Part shown: piece after piece, positions 5,666 to 22,179 of the stretch | Layout of the letters: every line of letters starts with the position of its first letter | Numbering within the stretch: the first letter of the stretch is position 1 | Translations under genes and position numbers: made by a program | Assembly: GCA_028718185.1 (NCBI GenBank) | Contig: JAQUMH010000009.1 | Location: 1 to 37,663, forward strand | Source: Elusimicrobiota bacterium | GTDB lineage: Bacteria; Elusimicrobiota; UBA8919 | Length of the DNA stretch: 37,663 bases | Reading direction: 5' to 3' | The notes under the pieces: generated by a model | The model's database searches: none | What the model was told of the DNA's origin: nothing | Seen by the model: only the letters and a program-made list of their open reading frames with translations

Positions 5666-6349
5666 TCAACCGTTATTATTTCTTATTTTTTGCCCAGGCT
5701 TCCAACCTTTACCTGTAAGTCCAACAAATTTAAGTTTATCTCCATAATCTTTACTTCCATAATAACCGTTCCTAAAATTTCTTTTTATATCCCTTTTTTC
5801 CCTTAATCCATCCTTTATAAACTCTATATATAATTTTTGACGATTAAAAATATTTTCCGATAAACCAATGTATTCTGGTGATCGCTGTACTAAAACATTA
5901 CTTTTTGTAAAAGCATAAAACATATAACTACTCCATTTATACTCTTTGGCATCTTTTACCAACCCAGCCCGAATTGGATTTAGTTCAATATATCTACCGC
6001 ATTCAAGAAGATATATTCCATTTTCAACAACAAAACTTCTGAATCTATCTTGCCACAAATGCCCGCAACCACCATACTTTTTTCTGAAATACTGTACATA
6101 AGATTGGTTCAGATATTTTACACCATCACTTAGATTTCCGTGTTCGCTATTAAAAATAATTAAATGGTAATGATTATTCATTAAAACATAATGATGGACT
6201 TTCCATTTAAATTTTTCAATACATTTCTCTACGATTCTTAGAAAAAATTCATAATCTTCATCTTCAATAAATACTTTTTGCCTGTTGTTACCTCTTGACA
6301 CTATGTGAAAATATGAATTAGAAGGATTAAATCTTGCTAATCTTCCCAT
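5666..6349 (-). CDS. REP-associated tyrosine transposase (RAYT, Y1_Tnp / TnpA-REP type)
   Basis: A 227-residue HUH single-strand nuclease of the REP-associated family. The HUH motif is His60-Tyr-His62 in NNHYHLI. The nucleophilic tyrosine is most likely Tyr120 in GRYIELNPIRAGLV, followed by the typical YKWSS segment. GHLWQDRFRS and the N-terminal HIVSRGNNRQ are also family landmarks. RAYTs are single-copy domesticated relatives of IS200/IS605 transposases that nick GTAG/GGAC-marked REP hairpins. The start is fixed by AGGAGGATAAAA before the ATG. The gene is bracketed by ggggacggtcc inverted repeats and interrupts the polA-coaE pair. The GTAG hairpins scattered over the window are its possible substrates, but a substrate relation is inferred only. 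Confidence 0.9.
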   Translation of the reverse strand: MGRLARFNPSNSYFHIVSRGNNRQKVFIEDEDYEFFLRIVEKCIEKFKWKVHHYVLMNNHYHLIIFNSEHGNLSDGVKYLNQSYVQYFRKKYGGCGHLWQDRFRSFVVENGIYLLECGRYIELNPIRAGLVKDAKEYKWSSYMFYAFTKSNVLVQRSPEYIGLSENIFNRQKLYIEFIKDGLREKRDIKRNFRNGYYGSKDYGDKLKFVGLTGKGWKPGQKIRNNNG

Positions 6350-9047: not shown

Positions 9048-9160
9048 CCTCACTTCGTTCGGAAGCACGAATTGTCACGAATTTTATAACATCTCACGAA
9101 TAAGTCATCACAAATACTCGGGTTTATTCGCGACTTTCTTATTCGCGTCAATTCGCGCGT
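9048..9160 (-). repeat. 'cacgaatt' repeat, copy 3, between polA and motB
   Basis: Nearly identical to the copy at 1190 over cacgaattgtcacgaatt and the following cataacatctcacgaataag stretch. It then runs into attcgcg units. One end supplies the ribosome binding site of polA. The other end is read as the last codons (ARAN, stop) of the MotB protein, so the element has trimmed or replaced that C terminus. Confidence 0.75.
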
Positions 9161-9939
9161 GCCGGATTGTATGGTACTAATATTTCTGTTCCTTTCGGGA
9201 TATTTCCGTTAGTGTCTATTTTTTCTTTATTTAATTCGCGAATTTGCTGTGAATAAGTCTCGTTTCCAAAAAATCTTTTTGATATTTCAGAAATATTTTC
9301 AACATCAACGGTTTTATAGTAAATAAATCTTTCGGTCTCTTTCATATTTGTTCTTACTATTGTCATTTCTATTCTTCTGTTTTTTGCACGACCTTCTTCA
9401 GTATCATTTCCCGCTACCGGATGAAATTCACCATAACCGCGAATTTGAAATCGTTTAGGGTCAATACCACTTTTTATAAGTTCATTTGCAACACTCCATC
9501 CTCTTTCTGCAGAAAGATACCAGTTGTCTTTATATTTACCTCTATTCAGCGGTACTGCATCTGCGTGCCCTGATACAATAATAGTACCGGTATTATCATT
9601 TATAAACTTGTTAACCTCCGCAAGAACTTCTGTAAATCCGGACTTTAATTCTGCACTCCCTGCTTTGAATATTATATCCTGCTGTAATGTTACATTTATC
9701 TTTTCAGCAGAAACAGTAACAGCTCCATATTTCTCAAGGTTTTTTACAAGTATTTTCTGTTCATCTTCCTTTTCTATAACAGTTTTCGGCTTAATTGAAG
9801 AAAGCGCAAAAAGCATAAGAAAAAATATCATCAGATTGGTCATAAGATCGCCATATGACACTATCCAAAGATTAGGATCTACTTCTGCTGATTCACCGTA
9901 TCTTCTTCCAAAAAGGATTGATTTAGATTTTCTTGCCAT
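9148..9939 (-). CDS. MotB-type stator protein with OmpA-like and LysM domains
   Basis: 263 residues. A short cytosolic tail precedes one membrane helix carrying the ion-binding aspartate, Asp31, in VSYGDLMTNLMIFFLMLFAL. This is the counterpart of E. coli MotB Asp32. An OmpA-like peptidoglycan-binding domain follows at about 85-197 (FKAGSAEL, GHADAVP, RGYGEFHPV, AKNRRIEM). Unusually, the C terminus (about 207-256) adds a LysM-like module, ISKRFFGNE to KGTEILVPY, giving a second peptidoglycan grip. The protein should be the anchored half of a MotA-MotB ion channel in the inner membrane. AGAGGATTAT before the ATG supports the start. It is the last gene of the FliFG-MotA-MotB-MotB series. The final residues come from a repeat. 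Confidence 0.9.
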   Translation of the reverse strand: MARKSKSILFGRRYGESAEVDPNLWIVSYGDLMTNLMIFFLMLFALSSIKPKTVIEKEDEQKILVKNLEKYGAVTVSAEKINVTLQQDIIFKAGSAELKSGFTEVLAEVNKFINDNTGTIIVSGHADAVPLNRGKYKDNWYLSAERGWSVANELIKSGIDPKRFQIRGYGEFHPVAGNDTEEGRAKNRRIEMTIVRTNMKETERFIYYKTVDVENISEISKRFFGNETYSQQIRELNKEKIDTNGNIPKGTEILVPYNPARAN

Positions 9940-9958
9940 ATAATCCTCTGATTATTAA

Positions 9959-9981
9959 GCACCTTAAGATGGTGCAACTAC
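9959..9981 (-). repeat. GTAG-type REP hairpin between the two motB genes
   Basis: On the minus strand GTAGTTGCACCATCTTAAGG begins a stem with arms GCACC and GGTGC. Just beside it, attccatgtcaagcatggaat (9985-10005) is a second, unrelated palindrome. The two fill most of the 97-base gap. Confidence 0.7.
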
Positions 9982-10036
9982 CAGATTCCATGTCAAGCAT
10001 GGAATGACAACATCACATGTTGTTTCAAAAAATCAA

Positions 10037-10690
10037 CTATTTTTCCCAATAAACAATGTTGATTTCTATTCTCCTGTTTAATTGCCTGTGTTCTTCAGTA
10101 TCATTTGGATAAAGCGGTTGATGTTCACCATATCCCGCAAGAACCAATCGTTTCGGATCTATACCTTTATTTTGTAAAAATATTACTACGCTTCTTGCTC
10201 TATCTATAGATAATTCCCAATTTGACGAATATCTTTTTGTTATAGGTGTATTGTCTGTATGTCCTTCAACGATAACAGTATATGGTACATCATTTAGCCA
10301 ACTTGCAAGTTCTGATAGTGTTTCTGTTGCAGATGATTTCAAATCCGCTTTCCCTGAATCAAAAAAAATCGGCGCATTGAAAACTATCCGTATACCTTCC
10401 AAATCAGATTTCGGTTTTGTTACCGCTCTGAAGTTTTCCGGTACATTTTCTTCTTTTACTTCATACTTTGGTTCTTCTTTTACTGCTTCTACTTTTTGTT
10501 TTGTTATTCTTTCCTGAATCGATTTTGTAGCTTCTGTATATGTTTCAAATGAAGATTGTGATAGTCCCCAAAGCATAAGAAAAAACAGCATAAGGTTTGT
10601 CATAAGGTCGGAGTAGATAATCAACCATATAGATGAAGAACTCTGATCGCTATCATCTCCAAAATCTCTTATTTGAAATATTTTTCGCAT
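10037..10690 (-). CDS. second MotB-type stator protein
   Basis: 217 residues. One membrane helix has the ion-binding aspartate Asp28 in IIYSDLMTNLMLFFLMLWGL. A charged Lys/Glu-rich linker (about 50-95) follows, then an OmpA-like domain (about 100-215) with FDSGKADL, EGHTDNTP, AGYGEHQP and NRRIEINIVYWEK. Unlike its downstream paralogue it has no LysM module and ends soon after the OmpA fold. Two different MotB proteins beside one MotA suggest either a mixed MotB dimer in the 5:2 channel or two alternative stators. The ribosome binding site is weak. It is separated from motA by 130 bases of palindromic repeat. Confidence 0.9.
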   Translation of the reverse strand: MRKIFQIRDFGDDSDQSSSSIWLIIYSDLMTNLMLFFLMLWGLSQSSFETYTEATKSIQERITKQKVEAVKEEPKYEVKEENVPENFRAVTKPKSDLEGIRIVFNAPIFFDSGKADLKSSATETLSELASWLNDVPYTVIVEGHTDNTPITKRYSSNWELSIDRARSVVIFLQNKGIDPKRLVLAGYGEHQPLYPNDTEEHRQLNRRIEINIVYWEK

Positions 10691-10705
10691 ATAAAGTTAA
10701 TTTTT

Positions 10706-10810
10706 GAGATTGCTTCACCTTCGGACTGCCTACCGCCAGGCAGGTTCGCAATGACACTCTCTTTAGTCATTGCGAGGGATTCACGATGCTTGGGATAATG
10801 AAGCAATCTA
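10706..10810. repeat. 'cattgcgag/gcaatgac' palindromic repeat between motA and motB
   Basis: A composite of inverted units: gattgcttcac then gttcgcaatgac, and gtcattgcgag then gaagcaatct. The inner palindrome ctgcctaccgccaggcag lies between them. It fills the gap between the two stator genes and may fold strongly in the mRNA. The same family is found inside genes farther right in the window. Confidence 0.75.
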
Positions 10811-10820
10811 TTTGCGAATT

Positions 10821-11582
10821 TTATTTTTTTCTCATTCTATACGCAAGATATGCTTCCAATTTTCTTCTTAAAATTAAAGGTATGTCGCCGGATTGAATGG
10901 AAAGAATCCCTTCAATCATAACCTCTTTTACGAGAATTTCGGCTTCGGAAAGTGCATTAAGTTTCGATGCAATCGGTAAGAAAATAAAATTAGTGGAAAA
11001 TATTCCATAAAATGTCGCTGTTACTGCAATAGCCATTGAAGCACCCATTGTTTTCGGGTCAGCAAGATTTTTCAATACCTGAATAACTCCGATAAGGGTT
11101 CCTAAAAGTCCAAATATAGGTGCATATGCCCCCATAGTCCTAAAAACAGAAGAGTTTGCACTGTGTCTCCTGCGAACAAAAACGATTTCTGTTTCAAGAT
11201 TATCTCTGATTAAATCAGGCGAGAGCCCGTCAATTAACAGATGGAAACCTTCTTTTAAAAATCTATCGTCCATTTTTAAAATATCATCCTGCAATGAATC
11301 AATACCAGTTCGTTTTGATTTTTCACAAAGAGTTATCAATGTATTTATTACTACTTCCGGACGCTGTTTAGTCTTATAAGAAAAAATAGTAAAAAATGAA
11401 GCTCTTATCGAACTTTTTAACTGTGCATATGGAACTGAAATGAGTGTTGAAGCAAAAGTACCTCCAAAAACAAGTATAGCAGCATACTTATCAAAAATTA
11501 TATTCATAATCCCACCATGCTGCATCACTATATAAACAGTTCCAACTCCCATAGCCAGACCAAGTAATGTTAAAATATCCAT
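10821..11582 (-). CDS. MotA-type stator channel protein
   Basis: 253 residues with the four-helix MotA/PomA layout: helices near 1-20 and 33-52, a large cytosolic loop, then helices near 150-170 and 183-206. The functional prolines are kept, Pro155 in YAPIFGLLGTLIGVI and Pro203 in FLPIASKL, and the C-terminal GDIPLILRRKLEAYL is typical. In the loop that touches FliG in flagellar motors, the position of E. coli Arg90 is Lys90 and that of Glu98 is Gln98 (KSKRTGIDSLQDDI). It would form the ion-conducting pentamer around MotB helices in the inner membrane. It lies between the FliF-FliG fusion gene and the two motB genes, all on one strand. Confidence 0.92.
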   Translation of the reverse strand: MDILTLLGLAMGVGTVYIVMQHGGIMNIIFDKYAAILVFGGTFASTLISVPYAQLKSSIRASFFTIFSYKTKQRPEVVINTLITLCEKSKRTGIDSLQDDILKMDDRFLKEGFHLLIDGLSPDLIRDNLETEIVFVRRRHSANSSVFRTMGAYAPIFGLLGTLIGVIQVLKNLADPKTMGASMAIAVTATFYGIFSTNFIFLPIASKLNALSEAEILVKEVMIEGILSIQSGDIPLILRRKLEAYLAYRMRKK

Positions 11583-11645
11583 AGTAATTAACCAATCAAA
11601 GATTTAAGATTCTTACTTCTTTAATCTTCCAATCTTCAATTGTCT

Positions 11646-13295
11646 CTAACCTCCTCGCTCTTTTTTTAATCGTTCTTTTATTCTTGCAAGCCGTTCATCT
11701 CTGGTTTCAGTTTTCATATCATCCGCATCTGATTTAGTTTCCGGTTCTAACTCATGTTTTGCTACATTTGAAACATTTTCTTCTATTATTTCGGTCTTTA
11801 CAATCGTAATTCTTCCTTCATCTCTAAGTTTTCGCATTGTCATTATAATCTTTCTCTCTTCTTCATCAATCTTAACCGGAGAAACCATTTGATTAAGGTC
11901 TATTTCCTGCTTTAACATTTCAGCAGCTCCGGAAGGCAGCATTTTCAGGATTTTCTCACGGGTAACATCTTTTGCTGCTTTCAGCCCTATTGCCCATGAC
12001 GGAAGCGGAATCTCTCTGAAAACCGTTCTTAATTCTGTAGGGTCAATAAAATATAAATCATTTATATCAAGAAGCTGTGATTTAACATGTGCCGCTAATT
12101 CGGGATTTGATAACGTAAGAGAAGATAAAATATTCTCACGGGTTTTTTTATCTGATCTTTCACATAATTCTATAACCTGAGCAGTACCGCCTATTAAATA
12201 GTCAATTTTCTTTTTAAGCTCTAATTCCATCATTTCCACATCATCAGGCTCAAGTTGTTTTACATTTACAAGTTCCATTGCAACCCTTGCCTGTATTTCC
12301 GGAGCTAATTGCGACATAACAAAAGACGCCCAATCTCTTCTTAAATAACTTAAAACGAGAGCAATCCTATCCGGTGTTTCATCTTTTAAAAGATAAGCAA
12401 GATTTTTTATATTTCCTTCACTTATGAACGGAAAAAGACTGGGTCTTACTGACTTACTGTCATCAAGCGACATTATCAAGTTACCACTCATACCACCACC
12501 ACCGCCGGAAGATTGCTGTTGTGGTTGCCGGTTTACCATATTTTCCGGCATCTGAAGTTGTGTCGGCGGCGGTTTTACAGCGAGCGTCCTTAAAAGATGC
12601 TTAAAAAATATATTGAGCGGACCAAATAAGAAAAAAGCAAAAAGCATAATTCCCATAAACCAAATCATTGATTGTAAATTCAAAAAAGCCTGCCACCAAT
12701 ATGTTTGCTTTTTATAAAATTCAGTTTTTTCAACTAATAACGTATCACCTCTATCAACGTTGATATCAACAAGCCCTGTTATTACTTTTTTAGCTTCTGA
12801 AACAATACCTTCCGGAACATTTTTATCAAATTTAATTATAATTGTTATTTTTTTTATAAATTGCCTTAAAACATCGGATTCTCTGTTAGCAGAAGGCATT
12901 ATTACCTGAACAGGAGATTGTTGTATGTTTTCCTGTTCTCCAAGATTTTTCTTTGTCGGGACACCCGGCAGAATATAATCCTTAGTTGTTTTCCTGGGTT
13001 CCTGAACCTGCAGTTGTTCTATCTGCATTTGCTCTCCTGCTTTTAAATTACCTGCTTGTTCAACAATCGGTTCTATATTAACTATAACGATGAAATCCTG
13101 AGAACTTAAAAGTTTTGAAAGTGCTTCTGTTATTCTTTTTTCAATATTTGTCTCTAATGTGAGTTTTTCACGGTCAATATTATTATCTACTCCGTGACTA
13201 AAATCATGAATCATGAAGCATGAAGCAAGAAGCAAAAAAATAATCGCGGATATTTTCCAATTTCTATTTTTTTGCTTAAGTAAGATATTTATCAT
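11646..13295 (-). CDS. FliF-FliG fusion: membrane ring plus rotor protein
   Basis: 549 residues. Helix 1 (about 13-33) is a signal anchor. The periplasmic part (34-205) contains FliF-like pieces: EKRITEALSKLLSSQDFIVI at 52-71 and the late FliF segment at about 145-193, ending in VDRGDTLLVEKTEF. Helix 2 is about 206-230. After a Gln/Gly-rich linker (240-280) comes FliG middle and C-terminal domains at about 287-500: FPFISEGN, ETPDRIALVLSYL (EHPQ-type motif altered), the Gly-Gly of YLIGG, FREIPL and SGAAEMLKQEI. The FliG N-terminal domain, which normally binds FliF, is missing and is replaced by the covalent link. FliF ring-building domains 1 and 2 also seem absent. The last 50 residues are charged. 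This would be a minimal rotor for the adjacent MotA/MotB stators. Confidence 0.88.
   Translation of the reverse strand: MINILLKQKNRNWKISAIIFLLLASCFMIHDFSHGVDNNIDREKLTLETNIEKRITEALSKLLSSQDFIVIVNIEPIVEQAGNLKAGEQMQIEQLQVQEPRKTTKDYILPGVPTKKNLGEQENIQQSPVQVIMPSANRESDVLRQFIKKITIIIKFDKNVPEGIVSEAKKVITGLVDINVDRGDTLLVEKTEFYKKQTYWWQAFLNLQSMIWFMGIMLFAFFLFGPLNIFFKHLLRTLAVKPPPTQLQMPENMVNRQPQQQSSGGGGGMSGNLIMSLDDSKSVRPSLFPFISEGNIKNLAYLLKDETPDRIALVLSYLRRDWASFVMSQLAPEIQARVAMELVNVKQLEPDDVEMMELELKKKIDYLIGGTAQVIELCERSDKKTRENILSSLTLSNPELAAHVKSQLLDINDLYFIDPTELRTVFREIPLPSWAIGLKAAKDVTREKILKMLPSGAAEMLKQEIDLNQMVSPVKIDEEERKIIMTMRKLRDEGRITIVKTEIIEENVSNVAKHELEPETKSDADDMKTETRDERLARIKERLKKERGG
13203..13238 (-). repeat. heptamer repeat in the FliF-FliG signal anchor
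   Basis: Imperfect 7-mers (catgaat, catgaag, caagaag) are read in frame as LLLASCFMIHDF, the end of the first membrane helix. Confidence 0.7.
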
Positions 13296-13539: not shown

Positions 13540-15441
13540 CTATGGAATTACCAATTCCTGACCGACAACGAGAGACCAGCGATTAGGGAGTTTATCTTTA
13601 TTTGCTTCGTATATTTTACCCCAACTTGTTTTATTCCCGTAGAATTTCACTGAAAGACTTTGAGGAGAATCTCCTCTCAGAACAACATATTTCCTAATCA
13701 ACGGTTTCTCTCCCAACTTTTCTACTTTTGGAACTGTTGCTTCCCCTGCAAGAAATTCCGATATTTGTTTATTATTAGGTTCTAATTTTAATCCTATTTT
13801 CCACACTGATTTAGCTTTTTCAACACTGCCGATTGCCCAATAAGCAGAACCAAGCCGCATTAAAGCTAAAACATTGTCTTCCTCTAAATCTAAAACGGTG
13901 TTACATTCTGAAATAGCCTGGACATATTTGCCTTCATAAATATTTTCAAGTGCCTTCTGAAGTTTCATACCAACAAGATTTAGACCGGGAATTGACTCTT
14001 CTTTAGATGCAACATCAGGGAATTCCTTAGATATCAAATCATACAATTGCTGTAATGCCAAATCATCCGGTAATAATTCAGTGGCGTATTTTATCGCATT
14101 AAAAGAAAGAGTAGGATTATTCTCTATATATGCAGTTATCCCTTTTCTAATAATACGAGATGCTTTTTCCATGTCGGTTTTTTCAGAAAGAACAGAAGCT
14201 ATTGACTTTATTTTCTTCTTAATCATTTTTGCACCCTGATGTTCAGGGTTTAACTCAAGTACTCTTGTTATATTTTCATCTGCACTTGAATACAATCCTT
14301 TCCTATAAGCTTCCTGGACATTTTTCATCATAAGTTCAGCAGCACGTTTATTCTCTTCGGTAACTATATTTTTAGGTAATTCCTCTTCCACGTTTTCCTC
14401 TTCTGCCACTTCCCCGGGAAACTCAGGTTTTAGTTGTTTAACATTAGGTAATGGACCAAACATAAAAGAAACAGATATTTTATGGCTTCCATATGTATTA
14501 TTTATCCCTACAAGAGGAAAGATAAATGCATAATCAACTTTATATTTTGCCTGATTTATACCTAACCCGACACTCAATCTTCGTAAGTCCCTGCTGCCGA
14601 AAGTCAAGGCACCTCTTAACGCAAGAAGTCTTTCTGAAAAATACTTTTCAAATCCTGCAATAAAATCTGTATCACTTGCTTTTGACAATACTTCGAGCGA
14701 TAAACTTGCTGTCTTCGGTATATAGGCAAAACCTAACCTGACGGTTTTTTCAACTTTATCACTTTCCTGCAAACCAATATCGGGTGAATTAAAGTTTTGA
14801 ATAGCCAGTCCAAGATTGTATTTTGATGCCGGTCTGTAAAAAATCCCAAAATCTGCTGAAAGTTTTGATTTGCTTTTCCCTTGCGAAAAAACAGGGTCAG
14901 GTCCTGAAAGTGATGTTCCATCATCACTAATAGCATTTTCTGTATAGTCGTCAGCACCAAATTTATGGGAAAGTGACTTCATAGTCAAGCCAATCCCCAA
15001 TTTTGGTTTTATCCTAATTCCATATGAAAATAATATCATTTTCTCGGAGTATAAACTTGAAAGTGAAATTGTTCTAATTCCCATACCGACAGTTCCATAT
15101 TCTCCAAATGGATTTATGTATGATATAACCGAATCCGAAATATTCGAGTTATCTGTAAGTCCATAATAAAGCCTGCCAAATGATGCACTAAATTCATTGT
15201 TTTTTATAAGATAAAGTCCTGCAGGATTATAAAATATAGCATTAGAATCATCAGAAATAGCCGTAAAAGCACCTCCCATAGATGCAGGTCTTATCCCGGG
15301 AGCAATGTCGTCGAAAGCAGCGAAAACATAATTGAAGATTGAAGATTGAAGATTAAAGATTAAAAGTAAGAACAGAGCTATCCTTTGCCACTTTTTAATG
15401 GCTTTTAAAGAATTTAATATATGGCTAAAATTTTTGTTCAT
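13540..15441 (-). CDS. PorV/UPF0164-like outer-membrane barrel with TPR and LysM domains
   Basis: 633 residues. The signal peptide (1-42) ends in YVFA-A. The barrel domain (about 43-335) opens with the family signature IRPASMGGAFTAISDDSNAI, then FYNPAGL, and continues as alternating strands to SVSFMFGPL. After an acidic linker (EVAEEENVEEELP) come about 220 residues of TPR-like helices (NPEHQGAKM, EDNVLALMRLGSAYWAIGSV). The C terminus is a LysM domain: RGDSPQSLSVKFYGN to LVVGQELVIP. So one protein joins an outer-membrane barrel to peptidoglycan. PorV in Bacteroidetes shuttles T9SS cargo; here it precedes the motor genes and follows a stand-alone C-terminal-domain protein. The barrel could instead be a general UPF0164 protein of unknown role. 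Confidence 0.85.
   Translation of the reverse strand: MNKNFSHILNSLKAIKKWQRIALFLLLIFNLQSSIFNYVFAAFDDIAPGIRPASMGGAFTAISDDSNAIFYNPAGLYLIKNNEFSASFGRLYYGLTDNSNISDSVISYINPFGEYGTVGMGIRTISLSSLYSEKMILFSYGIRIKPKLGIGLTMKSLSHKFGADDYTENAISDDGTSLSGPDPVFSQGKSKSKLSADFGIFYRPASKYNLGLAIQNFNSPDIGLQESDKVEKTVRLGFAYIPKTASLSLEVLSKASDTDFIAGFEKYFSERLLALRGALTFGSRDLRRLSVGLGINQAKYKVDYAFIFPLVGINNTYGSHKISVSFMFGPLPNVKQLKPEFPGEVAEEENVEEELPKNIVTEENKRAAELMMKNVQEAYRKGLYSSADENITRVLELNPEHQGAKMIKKKIKSIASVLSEKTDMEKASRIIRKGITAYIENNPTLSFNAIKYATELLPDDLALQQLYDLISKEFPDVASKEESIPGLNLVGMKLQKALENIYEGKYVQAISECNTVLDLEEDNVLALMRLGSAYWAIGSVEKAKSVWKIGLKLEPNNKQISEFLAGEATVPKVEKLGEKPLIRKYVVLRGDSPQSLSVKFYGNKTSWGKIYEANKDKLPNRWSLVVGQELVIP
15331..15365 (-). 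repeat. heptamer repeat forming a signal-peptide core (PorV-like protein)
   Basis: Units attgaag, attgaag, attgaag, attaaag, attaaaa. They are read on the minus strand as LLIFNLQSSIFN immediately before the cleavage region. Confidence 0.85.
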
Positions 15442-15580: not shown

Positions 15581-16009
15581 TTACTTTGCCACTACTACTG
15601 TTCCGTTAAATACTTTACCTTCTGCTTCTATTTGGTAAATATATATTCCGGACGGAACAACTTTACCGCTGCTGTCTTTACCATTCCATATCATTTTAGG
15701 GTTATCACCTTCACTGTCAACAGAAAGCATATTTGCAACAAAAGAACCATTAAGTGTTAATATCTTTCCATCTACTTGTGAAGAATAATCTGTCTCATAT
15801 GGAACAATAAAAATATCATTTTTATGGTCACCATTAGGAGTAATAATTTTAGGTTTTGTTTCACCAAGCTGGAAACCTTGAGCATAGAGACTGTCCGATG
15901 TCCAAAGTCCGAAGTCCGAAGTCAATAATATGACAAAAATAATAAATATAAGCCATCGACATCGGACATTGGACATTGGACATTGGACATTTTTTTTATA
16001 ATTTATCAT
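15581..16009 (-). CDS. small exported protein consisting of a FlgD-Ig/T9SS-like C-terminal domain
   Basis: 142 residues. The signal peptide reaches about residue 44 (SLYA-Q). The rest is a single domain: ITPNGDHKNDIF, then strands, then IWNGKDSSGKVVPSGIYIYQIEAE and the ending GKVFNGTVVVAK. The last twelve residues are identical to the end of the fn3 protein at 19450-22179. Such domains resemble the FlgD-Ig/'TPNGDG' C-terminal domains that direct T9SS export or surface attachment. Here there is no passenger, so the protein may be a free decoy, pilotin or adaptor, or a remnant of a deleted larger protein. It starts two bases after the kinase stop codon with GGAGGATAG overlapping, so it is translationally coupled to the kinase. 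Confidence 0.8.
   Translation of the reverse strand: MINYKKNVQCPMSNVRCRWLIFIIFVILLTSDFGLWTSDSLYAQGFQLGETKPKIITPNGDHKNDIFIVPYETDYSSQVDGKILTLNGSFVANMLSVDSEGDNPKMIWNGKDSSGKVVPSGIYIYQIEAEGKVFNGTVVVAK
15892..15990 (-). repeat. two heptamer repeat tracts flanking a membrane helix
   Basis: tgtccgatgtccaaagtccg-type 7-mers at 15892-15921 and ggacatt 7-mers at 15958-15990 surround the signal-peptide hydrophobic core of the 142-residue protein. They encode SNVRCR and LTSDFGLWTSDS. Confidence 0.8.
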
Positions 16010-16011
16010 AT

Positions 16012-17481
16012 CTATCCTCCGGTCGGCAATTTTATTGTAAATGTTGCGCCTTTTCTTTCACCTTCGCTTGAAATTAATATTTTCCCCTTATGTCTTTGTA
16101 CTATTCCAAAAGATATTGCCAACCCAAGTCCTGTACCTTTACCCGGGTCTTTCGTTGTAAAAAACGGTGTAAATATTTTTGTCAGATTTTCTTTGGTAAT
16201 TCCCGTGCCCATATCAACAAAAGTCACATTAACATATGTTGGTAATACCATTGCATCACGACTGGTTGTTACTGTAAGCACCCCTCCGTGAGGCATTGCC
16301 TGTATTGCATTTGTAATAATATTTAAAAACACCTGCTGAATATGCGGGGTAGATATGGCGACCTTGGGCATATTTTTACCGTAATTTTTAACAATATTTA
16401 TTTTTGACGCTGTTAAATCAGACGATGAAATTCCCAAACAAGTATCAATCACTTCAGTAATACTAACTTGTTCAAAATGATAATCCTTTTGCCTGGAAAA
16501 ATCCAGAAGATCTTTTGTTATTTTCCTGCACCGCTCTGCCGCTCTAGCTATTTTCTCAATTGTATCTCTTAACGGATCTGTAGGTGAAAGTTTCTCGAGA
16601 ATTCTTTGTGACTGTCCTAAAACACCCGTAAGAGGATTATTGAGCTCGTGAGCAATACCTCCTGCAAGCCTACCAAGAGATGCCATTCTATCCATCTGTA
16701 TTATTTGAGTTTCCGATTTTTTTAAATTCTGTGCCATTTTATTAAATACTTTCGCAAGCAAAGTAAGCTCGTCATTGCCTGAAAGCTTAACCTCATAACT
16801 AAAATCACCATTACCTATCCTTTCTGCACCTTCCCGCAACCTGGAAAGCGGACTTGAAATGGAACGGAATAACATTATTGAAAGGATTATTGCAAGAACA
16901 ACCGCCATAACAGACAAACCTGATGATATTAAAAAGTTTATTTGTTCAATTTCCAGTGACCTTTTTTCAGCAACTTTAAAATCAGATGCCTTTTCTTCGT
17001 AAATATCTTTAATGTTTTTTCTGGTTTTATTTAAATAGGGAATAATGTCCTCATCAACCGCAGAAATTGCTTTCCCTTTTTTACCACTTGCGTAAATAGC
17101 TATAATATTTTTATACTTTGCTACCAAAGTATCGCACAAATTAGCAATTTCCACATATTCGTTATACTCATTTTTACTTATTTTATAATTTTTTAACTGA
17201 GCTAAATAACTATCGTTTTTTTCTTTTAGCATTTGTGAGAATTCATAAAACCTGCTCTCCTCGGATTCCTCGCCTAATACAAAATAAAAATCACAAGCAG
17301 ATACAGATTTATCAAGATAATACTGTATCTCCCTGATGCCTGCCATAAGCGAATAACTCTGAGCTGACTGCATAAGATAATATCTCAGTATTTTTCCCCG
17401 CATAGAAAGAACCACTGCTATAAACACTACTATGATAAGCATTGATGCAAACGAAATAATTAACCGGTTTTTTATGGTCAT
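16012..17481 (-). CDS. membrane sensor histidine kinase with HAMP domain
   Basis: 489 residues. Helix 1 (8-26) and helix 2 (about 184-206) bracket an all-helical periplasmic sensor of about 155 residues, like four-helix-bundle ligand domains of chemoreceptors. HAMP follows at about 204-258 (SPLSRLREGAERIGNGDF). HisKA has phospho-accepting His278 in LAGGIAHELNNPLTGVLGQ. The ATPase has NIITNAIQAMP, DMGTGI, FTPFFTT and GTGLGLAIS. It phosphorylates an unknown response regulator; none is adjacent, and the single-domain regulator at 825-1187 is one candidate. It is encoded between the second PorV-like gene and the C-terminal-domain protein, which suggests it senses envelope or surface conditions. 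Confidence 0.93.
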   Translation of the reverse strand: MTIKNRLIISFASMLIIVVFIAVVLSMRGKILRYYLMQSAQSYSLMAGIREIQYYLDKSVSACDFYFVLGEESEESRFYEFSQMLKEKNDSYLAQLKNYKISKNEYNEYVEIANLCDTLVAKYKNIIAIYASGKKGKAISAVDEDIIPYLNKTRKNIKDIYEEKASDFKVAEKRSLEIEQINFLISSGLSVMAVVLAIILSIMLFRSISSPLSRLREGAERIGNGDFSYEVKLSGNDELTLLAKVFNKMAQNLKKSETQIIQMDRMASLGRLAGGIAHELNNPLTGVLGQSQRILEKLSPTDPLRDTIEKIARAAERCRKITKDLLDFSRQKDYHFEQVSITEVIDTCLGISSSDLTASKINIVKNYGKNMPKVAISTPHIQQVFLNIITNAIQAMPHGGVLTVTTSRDAMVLPTYVNVTFVDMGTGITKENLTKIFTPFFTTKDPGKGTGLGLAISFGIVQRHKGKILISSEGERKGATFTIKLPTGG

Positions 17482-17589: not shown

Positions 17590-19182
17590 TTATTTAATCG
17601 TGCTTAACTCTTTTTCGGCTTCTGAAATATTTACTCCTTTGCCTTTATATTTTTCAATTATCTTCAAAAGAAGTATTTTCTTTTCCTGTTCTGTAGCACC
17701 TCTTTCTTTAAGCCGTCTGTAATAATCAAATGAAGAATCGTAATCACTCTTCGCCTGCATCTGTATTTTTATTACTGTTTCCTTTTCTTTATAAGCATCT
17801 GATATGTCTATACTTCTATTTTCGTATTTTTTTATGACTTTGTCAAGCAATAAAAGTCTTTCAGGCACTTCAGCATCCTGTGCGACTCTCTTTTGATAAT
17901 AAAGCATTGCATCTTTATACGATTTTTCTAACTCATCTTTTTTCTTAATTTTCTCTATTTCCAAATCCTGTGTAGTATTTGTTTTTTGCAGTTTCCTGGA
18001 TTCTTCTTCTACTTTTGCAGCTTCTTTAAGTTTGGTTTCCATTTCCAGTTTTATTTTTTCAGCTTCTTTCTGGAACTTTTCTGCATCAAAAAGCGCCTTT
18101 TTCGCTTCCAACTCAGCCTTAACTTTCGCTGCTTTTTCTTCGCGTAAATTCTGTTCATCTTTTGTCAATCGTAGTCTGCCAAATTTTATATTAAGCGCAA
18201 TCTTATGAGTACCAAGTGTATCTTTTATACCTGAAAGCTGCCATAACAACGCATAATCAAACGAAAAATTATCAAATTTTACTGTTAATCCGCCTGTTAT
18301 GTTATTCCATCTGCGACTTCCAAGCGACAAACCGCCTCTTAACCCGATATTTTTTTCTGCAAACCATTTTTCTCCGCCTAAAAGAACATTCAAATCACTG
18401 CCTTTGCTAACCGTTTCAAGTGAAAGTAGATAACTAAGTTTATTATATGCTGCACCTATCCGATAAACTGAAGGAATCTTATCTTCACCTGAAAGACCAA
18501 TATCAGGTTTTGTAATATTTTGTGCAGAAAACCCGAAAGAAAGACTGCTTGAATGTAAATATAGAATACCGAAATCGCCGCTGAAAGCAGATGATTTTTT
18601 ACCTTTATCAAACACAGGGTCACCCGAAATTCCTTCAATGTCAAGCCGTGTATTACCATTAGCATCAATTGCAGTTCTCGTGTAATCATCACTTCCAAAT
18701 TTTCTTGAAAGATTCTTAACTGAAATTCCTGTTGAAAGATACTTTGTAACAGGATACGCATATGACAATGCAACTGCAGTTTCATCATATAAATTAGATA
18801 ATGTAAGGTTATACCACGAGAATCCCGGTGTACCATATTTTCCAAGTGGTTGTACATAACCCAAGAAAGATGAACCTATAGAAGAATTATCGTCAAGCCC
18901 CATGAAAAGCCGTCCATAATTTGAAGTAAATTCTGCTTTTTTCAAAAGTGTCATTCCGGCAGGATTATAGAAAAGAGCATTAGCATCATTGGCAACAGCA
19001 GTAAAGGCACCTGACATACCCTGCGGTCTCGCGCCAATGTTCAGTTCATCAAAAGCGGCAAAGAGACAGGAAGTAGGAAGTAGGAAGCAGGAAGTGAAAA
19101 CAAAAATCAGGGACAGAAGTATCCTATGCCAATTTTTGATGGCTTTTAATGAATTCAATATATGGTTAAGAGTTCTGTTCAT
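17590..19182 (-). CDS. PorV/UPF0164-like outer-membrane protein with coiled-coil C terminus
   Basis: 530 residues. The signal peptide ends in SCLFA-A. The barrel (about 43-335) has IGARPQGMSGAFTAVANDAN, then LFYNPAGM, and ends KIALNIKFGRL. The rest is helical and highly charged: a predicted coiled coil at about 340-430 (Glu/Lys/Ala-rich, EKAAKVKAELEAKKAL) and two similar helical units (YYQKRVAQDAEVPERLLLLD and YYRRLKERGATEQEKKILLL). It differs from its paralogue at 13540-15441, which carries TPR and LysM instead. The coil could reach across the periplasm. AGGAAAC lies before the ATG. Two GC-rich hairpin elements precede the gene. Confidence 0.83.
   Translation of the reverse strand: MNRTLNHILNSLKAIKNWHRILLSLIFVFTSCFLLPTSCLFAAFDELNIGARPQGMSGAFTAVANDANALFYNPAGMTLLKKAEFTSNYGRLFMGLDDNSSIGSSFLGYVQPLGKYGTPGFSWYNLTLSNLYDETAVALSYAYPVTKYLSTGISVKNLSRKFGSDDYTRTAIDANGNTRLDIEGISGDPVFDKGKKSSAFSGDFGILYLHSSSLSFGFSAQNITKPDIGLSGEDKIPSVYRIGAAYNKLSYLLSLETVSKGSDLNVLLGGEKWFAEKNIGLRGGLSLGSRRWNNITGGLTVKFDNFSFDYALLWQLSGIKDTLGTHKIALNIKFGRLRLTKDEQNLREEKAAKVKAELEAKKALFDAEKFQKEAEKIKLEMETKLKEAAKVEEESRKLQKTNTTQDLEIEKIKKKDELEKSYKDAMLYYQKRVAQDAEVPERLLLLDKVIKKYENRSIDISDAYKEKETVIKIQMQAKSDYDSSFDYYRRLKERGATEQEKKILLLKIIEKYKGKGVNISEAEKELSTIK
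19068..19095 (-). repeat. heptamer repeat forming a signal-peptide core
   Basis: Four 7-mers (aggaagt, aggaagt, aggaagc, aggaagt) are read as TSCFLLPTSCL in the signal peptide of the second PorV-like protein. The sequence is different from that used by its paralogue, but the position and repeat length are the same. Confidence 0.8.
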
Positions 19183-19449: not shown

Positions 19450-22179
19450 TTACTTCGCTACAACAACCGTACCATTAAATACTTTACCGCCCGCTTCTAT
19501 CTGATAAATATAAATTCCGGAAGAAACTGTCTTGCCTGATGAATTTTTACCGTCCCACTTCAATGAGGACTCGGTATCACCTTTAAGCATATCGGAAATA
19601 TACGCGCCATTAATATCAAAAATCTTACCGCTGAGCCCTGAGTCATTACCCTCATATATAAAGTTAGTTACATCATTCCAGCCATCACCGTTCGGTGTAA
19701 AGACTCTCGGGTAAACCTTAGATAATGTAAATCCTGCTGCTCTCATTGACTGACGGACCTGATATTTCCCGCCTTTCTTGGTTTTGATTGAAACTGTTTG
19801 TTGTGCAGTGTCAACTTCGCCGCCGATTTTCACCCATTCAACACCGTTAAACCAGAACAGCGATAAATTGTCTTTTGCCTGATTTTCAGGAATTGGCGCC
19901 ATAGACGGCGTTCTTACAACACCATTTGAAATATCGTAAGATATCTTAACATCAGCAAGCGCTCTTGAGAACAGAAGTCCCGTTATGACTTCTTCAGAAA
20001 TGGCTTTCTTAGGAATAAATGCAAACGATTTTACAATCTTTCCTGTCTCTTCAGTTGTAAGGTGAACGACATCAAAGTAAACATCTTCACCGAAAGAATT
20101 GCTTTCTTTATAAAGCACGCTACATATTGCCTTTGCAATTGAAATAGAAGTCTTTGGTTCTGTTGAATCATAGAATGAAATATATCCTTCTGGTGAAGAA
20201 TCTACCCTTGCCGATGGTATTGAAACATTCGCAGAAAGGTCGTGAGTTGTAAGCCAGTAATAATAAAGATTTCCACCTGTGTAAGTAGTTGTAGATGTTA
20301 CATTTATCGGTATTGTCCAGGTTGTTGCTGTCCCGTTTATAGCACTTGAACGATAAAGTGTGTAGTGAGAAAGGTCTGTTGCAGTGGTACCGTCTGTTGA
20401 TTTAACTACAGCATCCCAGGTAATAGTTAAATATTTATCATCTGATGAAAGGGCTACTTTCAAATCACGAGGTTCTCTTGGAGGAATCCTGTCAGTAGCA
20501 GACGGTGCAATTGCTGTTGTTGAAGCAGCAACTGAATAGTTAGGTCTTAAATCATATGCGTATGCTTTGTAATAATATTGTACTTCAGGTATTAAGTTGG
20601 AATGGACAAGCGATGTCGCTGTTCCGGTAGAAATAATATACCCATTATAATCACCAACTGAATAATTAGTCCCTGCAACAGGTATAAACGCAGAAGGTGC
20701 CCCCGTTGAATAAACAATTAAAACACCCTTAAAGTCGGCATCAGTCGGATTAGTCCAGCTAAGTTGTATTTCCCTGCCATTTGGCTCATATAGCGGTTTT
20801 GCTGCAAAATTGGATACCTTTGCAGGTGGTGTCTGGTCAGATGTTAATGCATAAGGTGAATTTGAATAACCTGACCAGTTAGGTATTTCGTCGCCAACAA
20901 CCATACAGAACCACCATGTTGTATTATCTGCAAGTCCTGTTACAGTATATGACTGAGGAGCATTGACAACGGTTGAGGTTGAAATAAACCGTCTGTTATA
21001 TACCGGAACATTCCAAGCAGTATCAGTAGGAATAGCGCCTGCTGATGAGAACCTTATATCATAATAACCGTTTGTAAGGTCTTTTGAACGACCTACATTT
21101 TCTGTTGGTGCATTCCACTTCAATTCAACTGTATTAAAACCAACGTTGCCAATTGAAAGGGTAACAGCTGCCGGAGGGTCGTCATCAATTGCAGCAGATG
21201 CAAACGCTTTTGTATTTACATTTGCGACATCTGCAGTAGAATTCCAAACTGAATATAAACCTGCGAAATCATCATCAACCGCTTTTATTGCAAACCAGTA
21301 AGATGCACCAGGTGTAAGGTCAGCTAAAAGGAACGTCCTTTGAGAAAGCGGAGGAACATTAGTTGCTGTTATTGTTATCGTAGTACCAATAGTGTTAAAA
21401 TTGCTATTTGTTATAATTTGATTAGCATATTTAATTATATATTGTCCTGTAAGATTTCCAATAGTACCATCGTCGCCAGGTGATGTCCATTGAAGCAGAA
21501 TTTCTCCTTCATAATCTCCTGTAAGTGCTGTTAAGTCAGAAATTGCCGCAGGCGGCTTTACAATAATATCCATTACAGTAGCAGATGAGATATTGAAAGA
21601 AGTCGCTAAATAATGTCCTGAATCTTCTGCCCTAATTCCCAAATAAACAACTTTACCATAATAATCTGATGTTAATGTAAGTGTTTCAAACCGTTTATAA
21701 CCATATTCATCTCCCCAACCATTATTTCCATTATTATTTCTATCACCTTGTTCTGACCACCCTTGTGGATATTCCGATGCCTGGTTCCACCATGCTGTTG
21801 TGTTGTTTGATAAATCTGACAGTGAATTAGTTGAATATCTTACCTGATACGGCCAGTCAAGCACAAGTTCGCCATACCATGGTGCCGGGTCTTCTGCCGG
21901 AACAGTAAAGCTAAGATTTATTTCTCCTTCGTTTGTTCCAATTGATGCTGCTAAATCCGTTACTGATGTCGGTGGTCCGAAGTTAGGTCTGCAACTAAGT
22001 TCTATTGAATCAGGATTTGCAGCATAAACATAATTGAAGATTGAAGATTGAAGATTAAAGATTAAAAACATGAACAGAACTATCCTTTGCCATTTCTTTA
22101 TGGCTTTTAGGATGTCATATAGACCCTGAATCAAGTTCAGGGTGACACTAAGTGTCATCTGGTTAAGAGTTCTGTTCAT
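19450..22179 (-). CDS. surface fn3-repeat protein with FlgD-Ig/T9SS-like C-terminal domain
   Basis: 909 residues. The signal peptide ends in YVYA-A, then ANPDSIELSCRP. Several fibronectin type III-like modules follow, each with PPAAISDLTA-type starts, WTSPGDDG or WTNPTDAD motifs and W/Y-rich strands. A region at about 690-815 resembles a transition domain. The C-terminal domain (about 825-909) has FTPNGDGWNDV and KWDGKNSSGKTVSSGIYIYQ and ends GKVFNGTVVVAK. The architecture is that of a secreted surface protein whose last domain directs export or anchoring. The N terminus keeps the leader shared with both PorV-like genes, but 15 codons are inserted from a palindromic repeat (22090-22160). The RBS (AGGT) is weak and lies right after hairpin element 3. 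Confidence 0.85.
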   Translation of the reverse strand: MNRTLNQMTLSVTLNLIQGLYDILKAIKKWQRIVLFMFLIFNLQSSIFNYVYAANPDSIELSCRPNFGPPTSVTDLAASIGTNEGEINLSFTVPAEDPAPWYGELVLDWPYQVRYSTNSLSDLSNNTTAWWNQASEYPQGWSEQGDRNNNGNNGWGDEYGYKRFETLTLTSDYYGKVVYLGIRAEDSGHYLATSFNISSATVMDIIVKPPAAISDLTALTGDYEGEILLQWTSPGDDGTIGNLTGQYIIKYANQIITNSNFNTIGTTITITATNVPPLSQRTFLLADLTPGASYWFAIKAVDDDFAGLYSVWNSTADVANVNTKAFASAAIDDDPPAAVTLSIGNVGFNTVELKWNAPTENVGRSKDLTNGYYDIRFSSAGAIPTDTAWNVPVYNRRFISTSTVVNAPQSYTVTGLADNTTWWFCMVVGDEIPNWSGYSNSPYALTSDQTPPAKVSNFAAKPLYEPNGREIQLSWTNPTDADFKGVLIVYSTGAPSAFIPVAGTNYSVGDYNGYIISTGTATSLVHSNLIPEVQYYYKAYAYDLRPNYSVAASTTAIAPSATDRIPPREPRDLKVALSSDDKYLTITWDAVVKSTDGTTATDLSHYTLYRSSAINGTATTWTIPINVTSTTTYTGGNLYYYWLTTHDLSANVSIPSARVDSSPEGYISFYDSTEPKTSISIAKAICSVLYKESNSFGEDVYFDVVHLTTEETGKIVKSFAFIPKKAISEEVITGLLFSRALADVKISYDISNGVVRTPSMAPIPENQAKDNLSLFWFNGVEWVKIGGEVDTAQQTVSIKTKKGGKYQVRQSMRAAGFTLSKVYPRVFTPNGDGWNDVTNFIYEGNDSGLSGKIFDINGAYISDMLKGDTESSLKWDGKNSSGKTVSSGIYIYQIEAGGKVFNGTVVVAK
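22033..22065 (-). repeat. heptamer repeat forming a signal-peptide core (fn3 protein)
   Basis: Same units and reading frame as in the PorV-like gene at 15331-15365, giving LIFNLQSSIFNYV. Confidence 0.85.
22110..22160. repeat. palindromic repeat inserted in the leader of the fn3 gene
   Basis: Contains the inverted repeat ccctgaatcaagttcaggg and gtgacactaagtgtcat. It encodes about 15 extra residues (MTLSVTLNLIQGLYD) that are absent from the otherwise parallel leaders of the two PorV-like genes. Confidence 0.75.

Follow-up and report, generated by a model that had tools for sequence, protein, structure and literature searches.

A 37,663-nucleotide window, by which we mean the whole stretch of DNA analysed (contig JAQUMH010000009.1 of the Elusimicrobiota assembly GCA_028718185.1), carries four successive minus-strand open reading frames (ORFs) at positions 13295-9148, which encode a FliF-FliG fusion, MotA, MotB1 and MotB2. 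This cassette probably forms a non-flagellar cell-envelope rotary motor, in which a covalent rotor combining the MS-ring (membrane and supramembrane ring) with FliG is driven by MotAB and moves or energises outer-membrane surface structures. The motor itself is well supported, and its output we infer. We observed the parts, their homology and co-conservation, and found no flagellar genes for export, switch or rod. A first-pass annotation of the window sequence had placed MotA and two MotB-type genes downstream of the fusion on the same strand, and the ORF coordinates and Pfam matches agree with this arrangement.

The rotor protein (549 residues; 11646..13295, minus strand, like all features with coordinates below unless stated) begins with a signal-peptide-like N terminus, followed by the ring-building motif 3 (RBM3)/collar and the second transmembrane helix (TM2) of FliF, a flexible linker, FliG_M and FliG_C. 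Both FliG domains pass their Pfam cut-offs, the middle domain with its GG linker at residues ~288-380 (12156..12434; FliG_M 8.3e-14) and the C-terminal torque domain at residues 392-498 (11802..12122; FliG_C 1.5e-23). In the case of the FliF half, the window fusion alone gave no FliF match in a single-sequence Pfam search, and this half was detected through a family profile. YscJ_FliF_C was matched by 18 of 30 members of the fusion family (best 4e-10), and the family profile recovered solved FliF structures from the PDB (9yh6, 1.3e-8; 8z5s, 2.5e-7) as well as SpoIIIAG (6e-5). FliF proteins of flagellates, encoded just before FliG, matched the profile with E-values down to about 2e-18, and the alignment spanned their residues ~230-470, which correspond to RBM3 through TM2. 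Based on these matches, the model secondary structure and a Foldseek hit, we assigned residues 38-192 (12720..13184) to an RBM3/collar-like periplasmic domain, and, from hydrophobicity and a conserved FLFGP motif, residues ~207-231 (12603..12677) to the equivalent of TM2.

An AlphaFold model of the window fusion, built from 17 aligned sequences, was moderate overall, with a mean predicted local distance difference test score (pLDDT) of 68.5 and a predicted template modelling score of 0.34. FliG_M and FliG_C mostly reached pLDDT values of 73-91, and the periplasmic part was modelled as a small alpha/beta domain in which the collar insertion (residues 79-145) was of low confidence. When the model was searched with Foldseek, the FliG part matched the FliG middle and C-terminal structure 1lkv (5e-12), and the periplasmic part matched the FliF RBM3/collar 6sd1 with a probability of 1.00 but an E-value of only 7.7e-3. 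Residues 240-284, between TM2 and FliG_M, had very low pLDDT and a weak FliG_N match fell within FliG_M, so FliG_N is truly absent from the fusion. The FliF half consists of only RBM3, collar and TM2; RBM1 and RBM2 are missing. Pfam, the family profile and Foldseek thus bear out the earlier proposal that a FliF-like periplasmic segment and TM2 are joined to FliG_M and FliG_C in one protein that has no FliG N-terminal domain.

Residues of the FliG half were counted in 59 fusions and 24 flagellar FliG proteins. The equivalent of K264 is K or R in 48/59 fusions, and that of D289 is E in 40/59. The FliM-binding EHPQR motif of FliG_M is degenerate: H126 is found in none of the 59 fusions, while flagellar FliG retains H in 23/24 and R160 in 23/24 sequences. 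Such a loss would be expected if FliM is absent.

The stator genes follow the rotor gene. MotA (253 residues; 10821..11582; torque loop KSKRTGIDSLQDD) is of the flagellar type according to Pfam (MotA_ExbB, 7e-28), NCBIfam, tree and alignment. MotAs linked to fusions cluster with flagellar-type MotA, separate from TolQ/ExbB, and their torque loops mostly retain the basic-then-acidic charges. MotB1 (217 residues; 10037..10690) has a transmembrane helix with the ion-carrying Asp (IYSDLMTNL) and an OmpA peptidoglycan-binding domain. MotB2 (263 residues; 9148..9939) contains SYGDLMTNL, an OmpA domain and a C-terminal LysM-like tail, which aligns with the tail of the barrel protein encoded upstream of the rotor gene (pairwise E 6e-8). 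Both match MotB_plug and OmpA in Pfam and were placed by residue alignment and tree, and they are old paralogues. With a FliG torque domain and flagellar-type MotA and MotB carrying the Asp, the cassette has the makings of a flagellar-type rotor/stator motor.

The two MotBs differ in how they keep this residue. Among 31 cassettes with two MotBs, the ion-carrying Asp was retained by MotB1 in 30, the exception being an odd pair at locus L041, whereas it is gone from MotB2 in 19 (Asn in 11, Thr in 6, Ser in 1 and Ala in 1). The MotB2 of the window still carries the Asp, unlike most of its relatives. The loss was repeated, with six changes between Asp and another residue on the tree, one of them being the L041 pair. 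The simplest reading would be a heteromeric stator, in which MotB1 and MotB2 form a heterodimer and the second carboxylate is dispensable. The alternative is two separate stators, but a homodimer of MotB2 that lacks the Asp would not be expected to conduct.

To examine the flagellar genes, we searched the genome of the window (3.03 Mb, 96.7% complete) within a set of 60 genomes, and E. coli, B. subtilis, C. vibrioides, T. maritima and one flagellated relative (G031) served as positive controls. The FlhA, FliM/FliN and rod searches were all positive in the controls. FlhA was not found in the genome of the window or in 58 of the others, and was present in G031. The FliM/FliN C domain (FliMN_C) and the rod/hook/basal-body N domain (Flg_bb_rod) were each missing from 59/60 genomes, including that of the window, with only G031 positive; flagellin was not searched for. 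Since the export gate and rod are missing, a flagellin filament is presumably absent as well. The only family match in G031 is FliG-like. As the whole-genome search revealed no flagellar gene set and profile searches support the FliF half, the earlier suggestion of an ion-powered rotor serving something other than a classic flagellum stands.

We sought related loci with a 10-row family alignment. The family profile matched 122/295 Elusimicrobiota genomes in 60/90 genera; G031, and perhaps a few more genomes with FliG only, are among these, and the number of fusion copies rises to 4-5. Two families with small genomes (f3 and f4), which are probably the host-associated Endomicrobiaceae and Elusimicrobiaceae, were mostly without a match. 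The motor is carried by many free-living Elusimicrobiota without flagella. The order fusion-MotA-MotB-MotB is kept across the phylum and in all six Nitrospirota carriers, which answers the call of the first-pass annotation to look for the same fusion and gene order in relatives.

The genome of the window holds three fusions, one of each of three locus types: the window itself (contig C9) represents type I, while type II lies on C12 and type III on C3. Type I loci contain, in order, PorP/SprF, a histidine kinase, a CHU_C protein, a PorV-like barrel protein with tetratricopeptide repeats (TPR) and LysM (PorV-TPR-LysM), the fusion, MotA, MotB1, MotB2 and polA. Type II loci start with a ~650-residue protein that has the look of an outer-membrane barrel, as judged by eye, and continue with the fusion, MotA, MotB1, MotB2 and a ~300-residue secreted TPR protein. 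In type III, a giant surface protein and PorV-TPR precede a fusion with an extra C-terminal TPR. Large proteins follow, either coiled coils of 1100-1860 residues, some of them TPR-ended, or proteins of 600-1090 residues with a Pro-rich start; they have no transmembrane helices or signal peptides and are cytoplasmic by that criterion. The giant coiled-coil proteins (L023:10837-14328, L029:11289-16082, L031:498-8824, L025:3047-7852), some of which are intermediate-filament-like, are possibly a cytoskeletal track or scaffold, and we would take them to be loosely like AglZ. A lone extra MotA-MotB pair with no fusion close by (L166:7614-9062, contig C1 of the same genome) might serve the type III rotor.

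Full fusions were also found in six Nitrospirota genomes (L058, L060, L168-L171). Each has a single family match, so the six carriers have no separate FliF or FliG, whereas flagellar FliF and FliG are generally separate in the other matching genomes that we sampled. All six share the order fusion, MotA, MotB1, MotB2, a secreted TPR protein, a 19-CXXCH cytochrome and two 6-CXXCH cytochromes (for example L058:9833-17915 and L060:1-7921), an arrangement that may link a rotary motor to extracellular electron transfer. Because Nitrospirota keep the core but flank it with cytochromes and not with T9SS (type IX secretion system)-like adhesins, the fusion, MotA, MotB1, MotB2 and TPR appear to be a portable core whose surface cargo varies.

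Several candidates did not hold as fusions or transfers. The Syntrophales FliG loci L061 and L063 sit beside a separate FliF and further shared flagellar-type genes, and FliF and FliG are separate genes in L062 (Eremiobacterota) and L064 (Planctomycetota). L026 is not a FliG-only protein, since it clusters with type III fusions and its N half is missing in frame. The cassette of L050 (JANXBR010000109.1), binned as Thermodesulfovibrio, is 90.6% identical over 3 kb to the Endomicrobia contig L052, and the bin has its own flagellar FliF and FliG; this Endomicrobia-like cassette is likely bin contamination.

Directly upstream of the rotor gene, the window encodes a protein (13540..15441) with a PorV-like 14-strand barrel (residues 82-328), TPR (362-564) and LysM (583-632). 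The barrel matched PorV_fam at 7.7e-18, under the cut-off of that model, its 14 strands were predicted by AlphaFold, and its top PDB match in Foldseek was 6h3i_F of the Type 9 translocon (E 9e-11), a chain that we take to be PorV. The TPR domain, of ~200 residues, was recognised beside fusions with E-values from 1e-90 to 1e-8 in nearly all cassettes, with types I, II and III and Nitrospirota represented, and is a fifth core part in both phyla. A gene labelled PorV or TPR lies on the same strand, at most two genes upstream or four downstream of the fusion, in 38/50 loci. The whole genome of the window has 53 PorV-family matches, an estimated ~2% of its genes assuming roughly 2,700, which makes 38/50 far more than adjacency by chance would give. 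While the motor parts of the minimal rotor proposed earlier were recovered, that description was incomplete, as it is extended here by the PorV-TPR partner, the three paralogous locus types and the asymmetric MotB pair.

In an unrooted tree, 47 fusions were parted from 22 flagellar FliGs of several phyla by one branch with 100/100 support; because it is unrooted, the tree is silent on whether the fusion or flagellar FliG came first. This careful tree excludes divergent paralogues on long branches (L036, L038, L086, L087, L089, L090, L027 and others), six of which fall beside flagellar FliG in a quick tree. In the quick tree the Nitrospirota fusions fall among Elusimicrobiota type II, which suggests transfer. 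The fusion is under purifying selection, with a ratio of nonsynonymous to synonymous substitutions (dN/dS) of 0.15 (dN 0.11, dS 0.75) for L044/L045, the only pair with unsaturated dS. A MotA pair gave 0.095 at a dS of 1.2, and the ORFs are intact in relatives.

How the ring assembles and turns, couples to PorV-TPR and produces its output we infer as follows. FliF RBM3 forms rings of about 33-34 copies, and the presence of this domain suggests that the fusion would assemble, in many copies, into one covalent MS-ring/FliG rotor of the inner membrane. MotA would associate with MotB1 and MotB2, probably one each per stator, and the OmpA domains would anchor them to peptidoglycan. FliG and MotA are partners in torque generation; following the flagellar paradigm, the stator would let ions through, the torque loop of MotA would push FliG_C, and the covalent link would carry torque to the RBM3 ring. 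With FliG tied covalently to TM2 and the RBM3 ring, such a motor could dispense with FliG_N-FliF docking, with a FliM/FliN switch and with an export apparatus. Going by co-conservation, the turning ring may act on the periplasmic TPR, which in the window locus belongs to the PorV-like outer-membrane barrel with its peptidoglycan-binding LysM, and in Elusimicrobiota it may also act on PorV-type outer-membrane proteins and T9SS-like surface proteins. Most likely, the motor would move T9SS-like surface proteins or energise their presentation, with gliding-like motility, perhaps gliding, and energised export as the two main candidates; in Bacteroidota this task falls to GldL/GldM.

The T9SS-like context bears on this output. 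A SprA/Sov-like translocon was detected in 56/60 genomes, weakly and under the curated cut-off (119.8 bits against 200 in the genome of the window). This protein of ~1,700-1,900 residues (G000:C12:19434-22466, where G000 is the genome of the window; L071:3126-8306) is near-universal, motor-less genomes included, and raises the question of an unrecognised T9SS-like system in Elusimicrobiota. In a hand-picked genome set, fusion-positive Elusimicrobiota had 30-53 PorV and 10-51 CHU_C matches, and small fusion-negative genomes 1-4 and 0-1, respectively; G047 had 15 and 4. GldM had no match in the 60 genomes, nor in any control, and GldL and GldK/GldN were not searched for.

Several points weigh against the motor as we describe it. 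The equivalent of FliG R281 is lost (G in 47/59 fusions), as is that of R297 (mostly S/T), so the torque interface differs from that of E. coli. Type III fusions are mostly without adjacent MotAB. Rotation and ring formation are proposed by analogy with the flagellar motor, and the putative contact between RBM3 and TPR is proposed from co-conservation. The absence of GldM is uncontrolled, as that search was positive nowhere. SprA-like proteins are found in motor-less lineages too, which makes the T9SS-like translocon independent of the motor. A T9SS-specific role is not universal, because the Nitrospirota cassette adjoins multihaem cytochromes and the one Nitrospirota genome checked has 2 PorV and no CHU_C matches; together with the SprA-like proteins of fusion-negative genomes, this cargo means that the output is not tied to T9SS alone.

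Among other explanations, a GldLM-like motor that serves no locomotion and energises the export or assembly of large outer-membrane proteins (T9SS-like adhesins, or multihaem cytochromes in Nitrospirota) is unlikely, although it has the most in its favour. Cassettes adjoin giant CHU_C/fn3/Kelch/BNR surface proteins and PorV/PorP proteins in Elusimicrobiota and the cytochrome series in Nitrospirota, and the PorV barrel resembles a T9SS translocon chain; however, a SprA-like translocon exists where the fusion does not, and a genome carries one to a few cassettes but dozens of PorV/CHU_C genes. We regard as improbable an envelope-maintenance role, in which a Tol-Pal/ExbBD-like force transducer or mechanosensor would connect the inner membrane to peptidoglycan and to the outer membrane and use the FliF-FliG ring as its scaffold. 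The OmpA, LysM and outer-membrane barrel parts would suit cell-wall coupling, but a separate TolQ-like protein is also encoded in the genome of the window, FliG_C and flagellar-type MotA indicate torque on a ring, and the cassette is missing from many related genomes that presumably retain an outer membrane. A decaying remnant of a lost flagellum is hardly credible, even though every motor part is homologous to a flagellar counterpart and G031 has a real flagellum. We rejected it given the wide conservation (about 60/90 genera, up to 4-5 copies) and purifying selection; the constant gene order in two phyla and the separation of the fusion clan from flagellar FliG also speak against it.

The cassette shares homologous rotor and stator parts with the bacterial flagellar motor, namely the FliG_C torque domain, the MotA torque loop and the MotB plug and OmpA domains. 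It differs in that FliF is cut to RBM3 and TM2 and fused to FliG_M and FliG_C without FliG_N, in its two MotB paralogues, one often Asp-less, and PorV-TPR partner, and in that the cassette genomes are without FliM/N, export gate, rod or hook. A precedent is the natural FliF-FliG fusion of non-flagellated Chlamydia, with a shortened FliF periplasmic part (Bergeron 2016, PMC4768692). That protein has ~330 residues and homology to the FliG M region only, FlhA is kept, and a link to the type III secretion system injectisome was suggested; unlike in the cassette, no FliG_C or stator was reported (PMC4768692). The GldLM motor of Bacteroidota, with PorV/SprF/SprA, is likewise a proton-driven envelope motor tied to PorV/PorP-type barrels and CHU_C-type adhesins (PMC8986121; PMC12635249), whereas the cassette uses a MotAB stator and a FliF-FliG rotor in place of GldL/GldM. 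In the Agl-Glt gliding motor of Myxococcus a flagellar-stator homologue also serves surface movement (PMC9120999), but no FliG/FliF rotor is known there, and AglRS belongs to the generic clade of ion transporters (PMC12505986). Zorya ZorAB shares similarity of the MotB domain through ZorB models only, and was rejected because no ZorA model matched and the ZorB/MotB similarity is generic.

A study of MotAB evolution split stators into flagellar and generic groups, in a text without Elusimicrobiota or FliF (PMC12505986), and rotor proteins without filaments have been raised as an open question (PMC12199754). We found no earlier description of the cassette in the literature searched, with most subscription papers and preprints outside its scope. 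Across two phyla, rotor, stator and outer-membrane partner are conserved together as a cassette that has no genes for export, switch or rod. Structural studies of torque generation would gain a simple covalent rotor from it, and its natural asymmetric MotB pair tests how many carboxylates a stator needs. Elusimicrobia were reported to be without flagellar genes (PMC7031533), and the cassette is a candidate for how such a phylum might move or work its surface. We tentatively propose, as a reading somewhat less likely than not, a new class of envelope machine evolving apart from the flagellum, with a covalent FliF(RBM3)-FliG rotor, a heteromeric MotA/MotB1/MotB2 stator with one dispensable carboxylate, and a TPR adaptor to lineage-specific cargo, either adhesins or multihaem cytochromes.

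Beyond PorV-TPR-LysM, the window encodes further genes of this locus. A small secreted protein with a T9SS-type CHU_C sorting domain (15581..16009; 1e-7) has the same position in L042/L043/L046, and beside it lies a sensor histidine kinase (16012..17481; HAMP, HisKA, HATPase), a conserved type I neighbour by locus comparison. A PorP/SprF-like outer-membrane protein of the PorV superfamily (17590..19182; PF11751, 6.5e-12) is also a conserved neighbour, and domain searches identified an fn3 surface protein with a T9SS type B-like C-terminal domain (19450..22179). Unusual N-terminal leaders ahead of the signal peptide (for example NHILNSLKAIKNWHRI; VQCPMSNVxxxW) recur in several secreted proteins and resemble translated short interspersed DNA repeats; the N termini of these proteins lie at 15441, 19182 and 22179 of the window, and also in L022 (8041, 12119). 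Downstream of polA, the window carries an IS200-like (Y1) transposase at 5666-6349.

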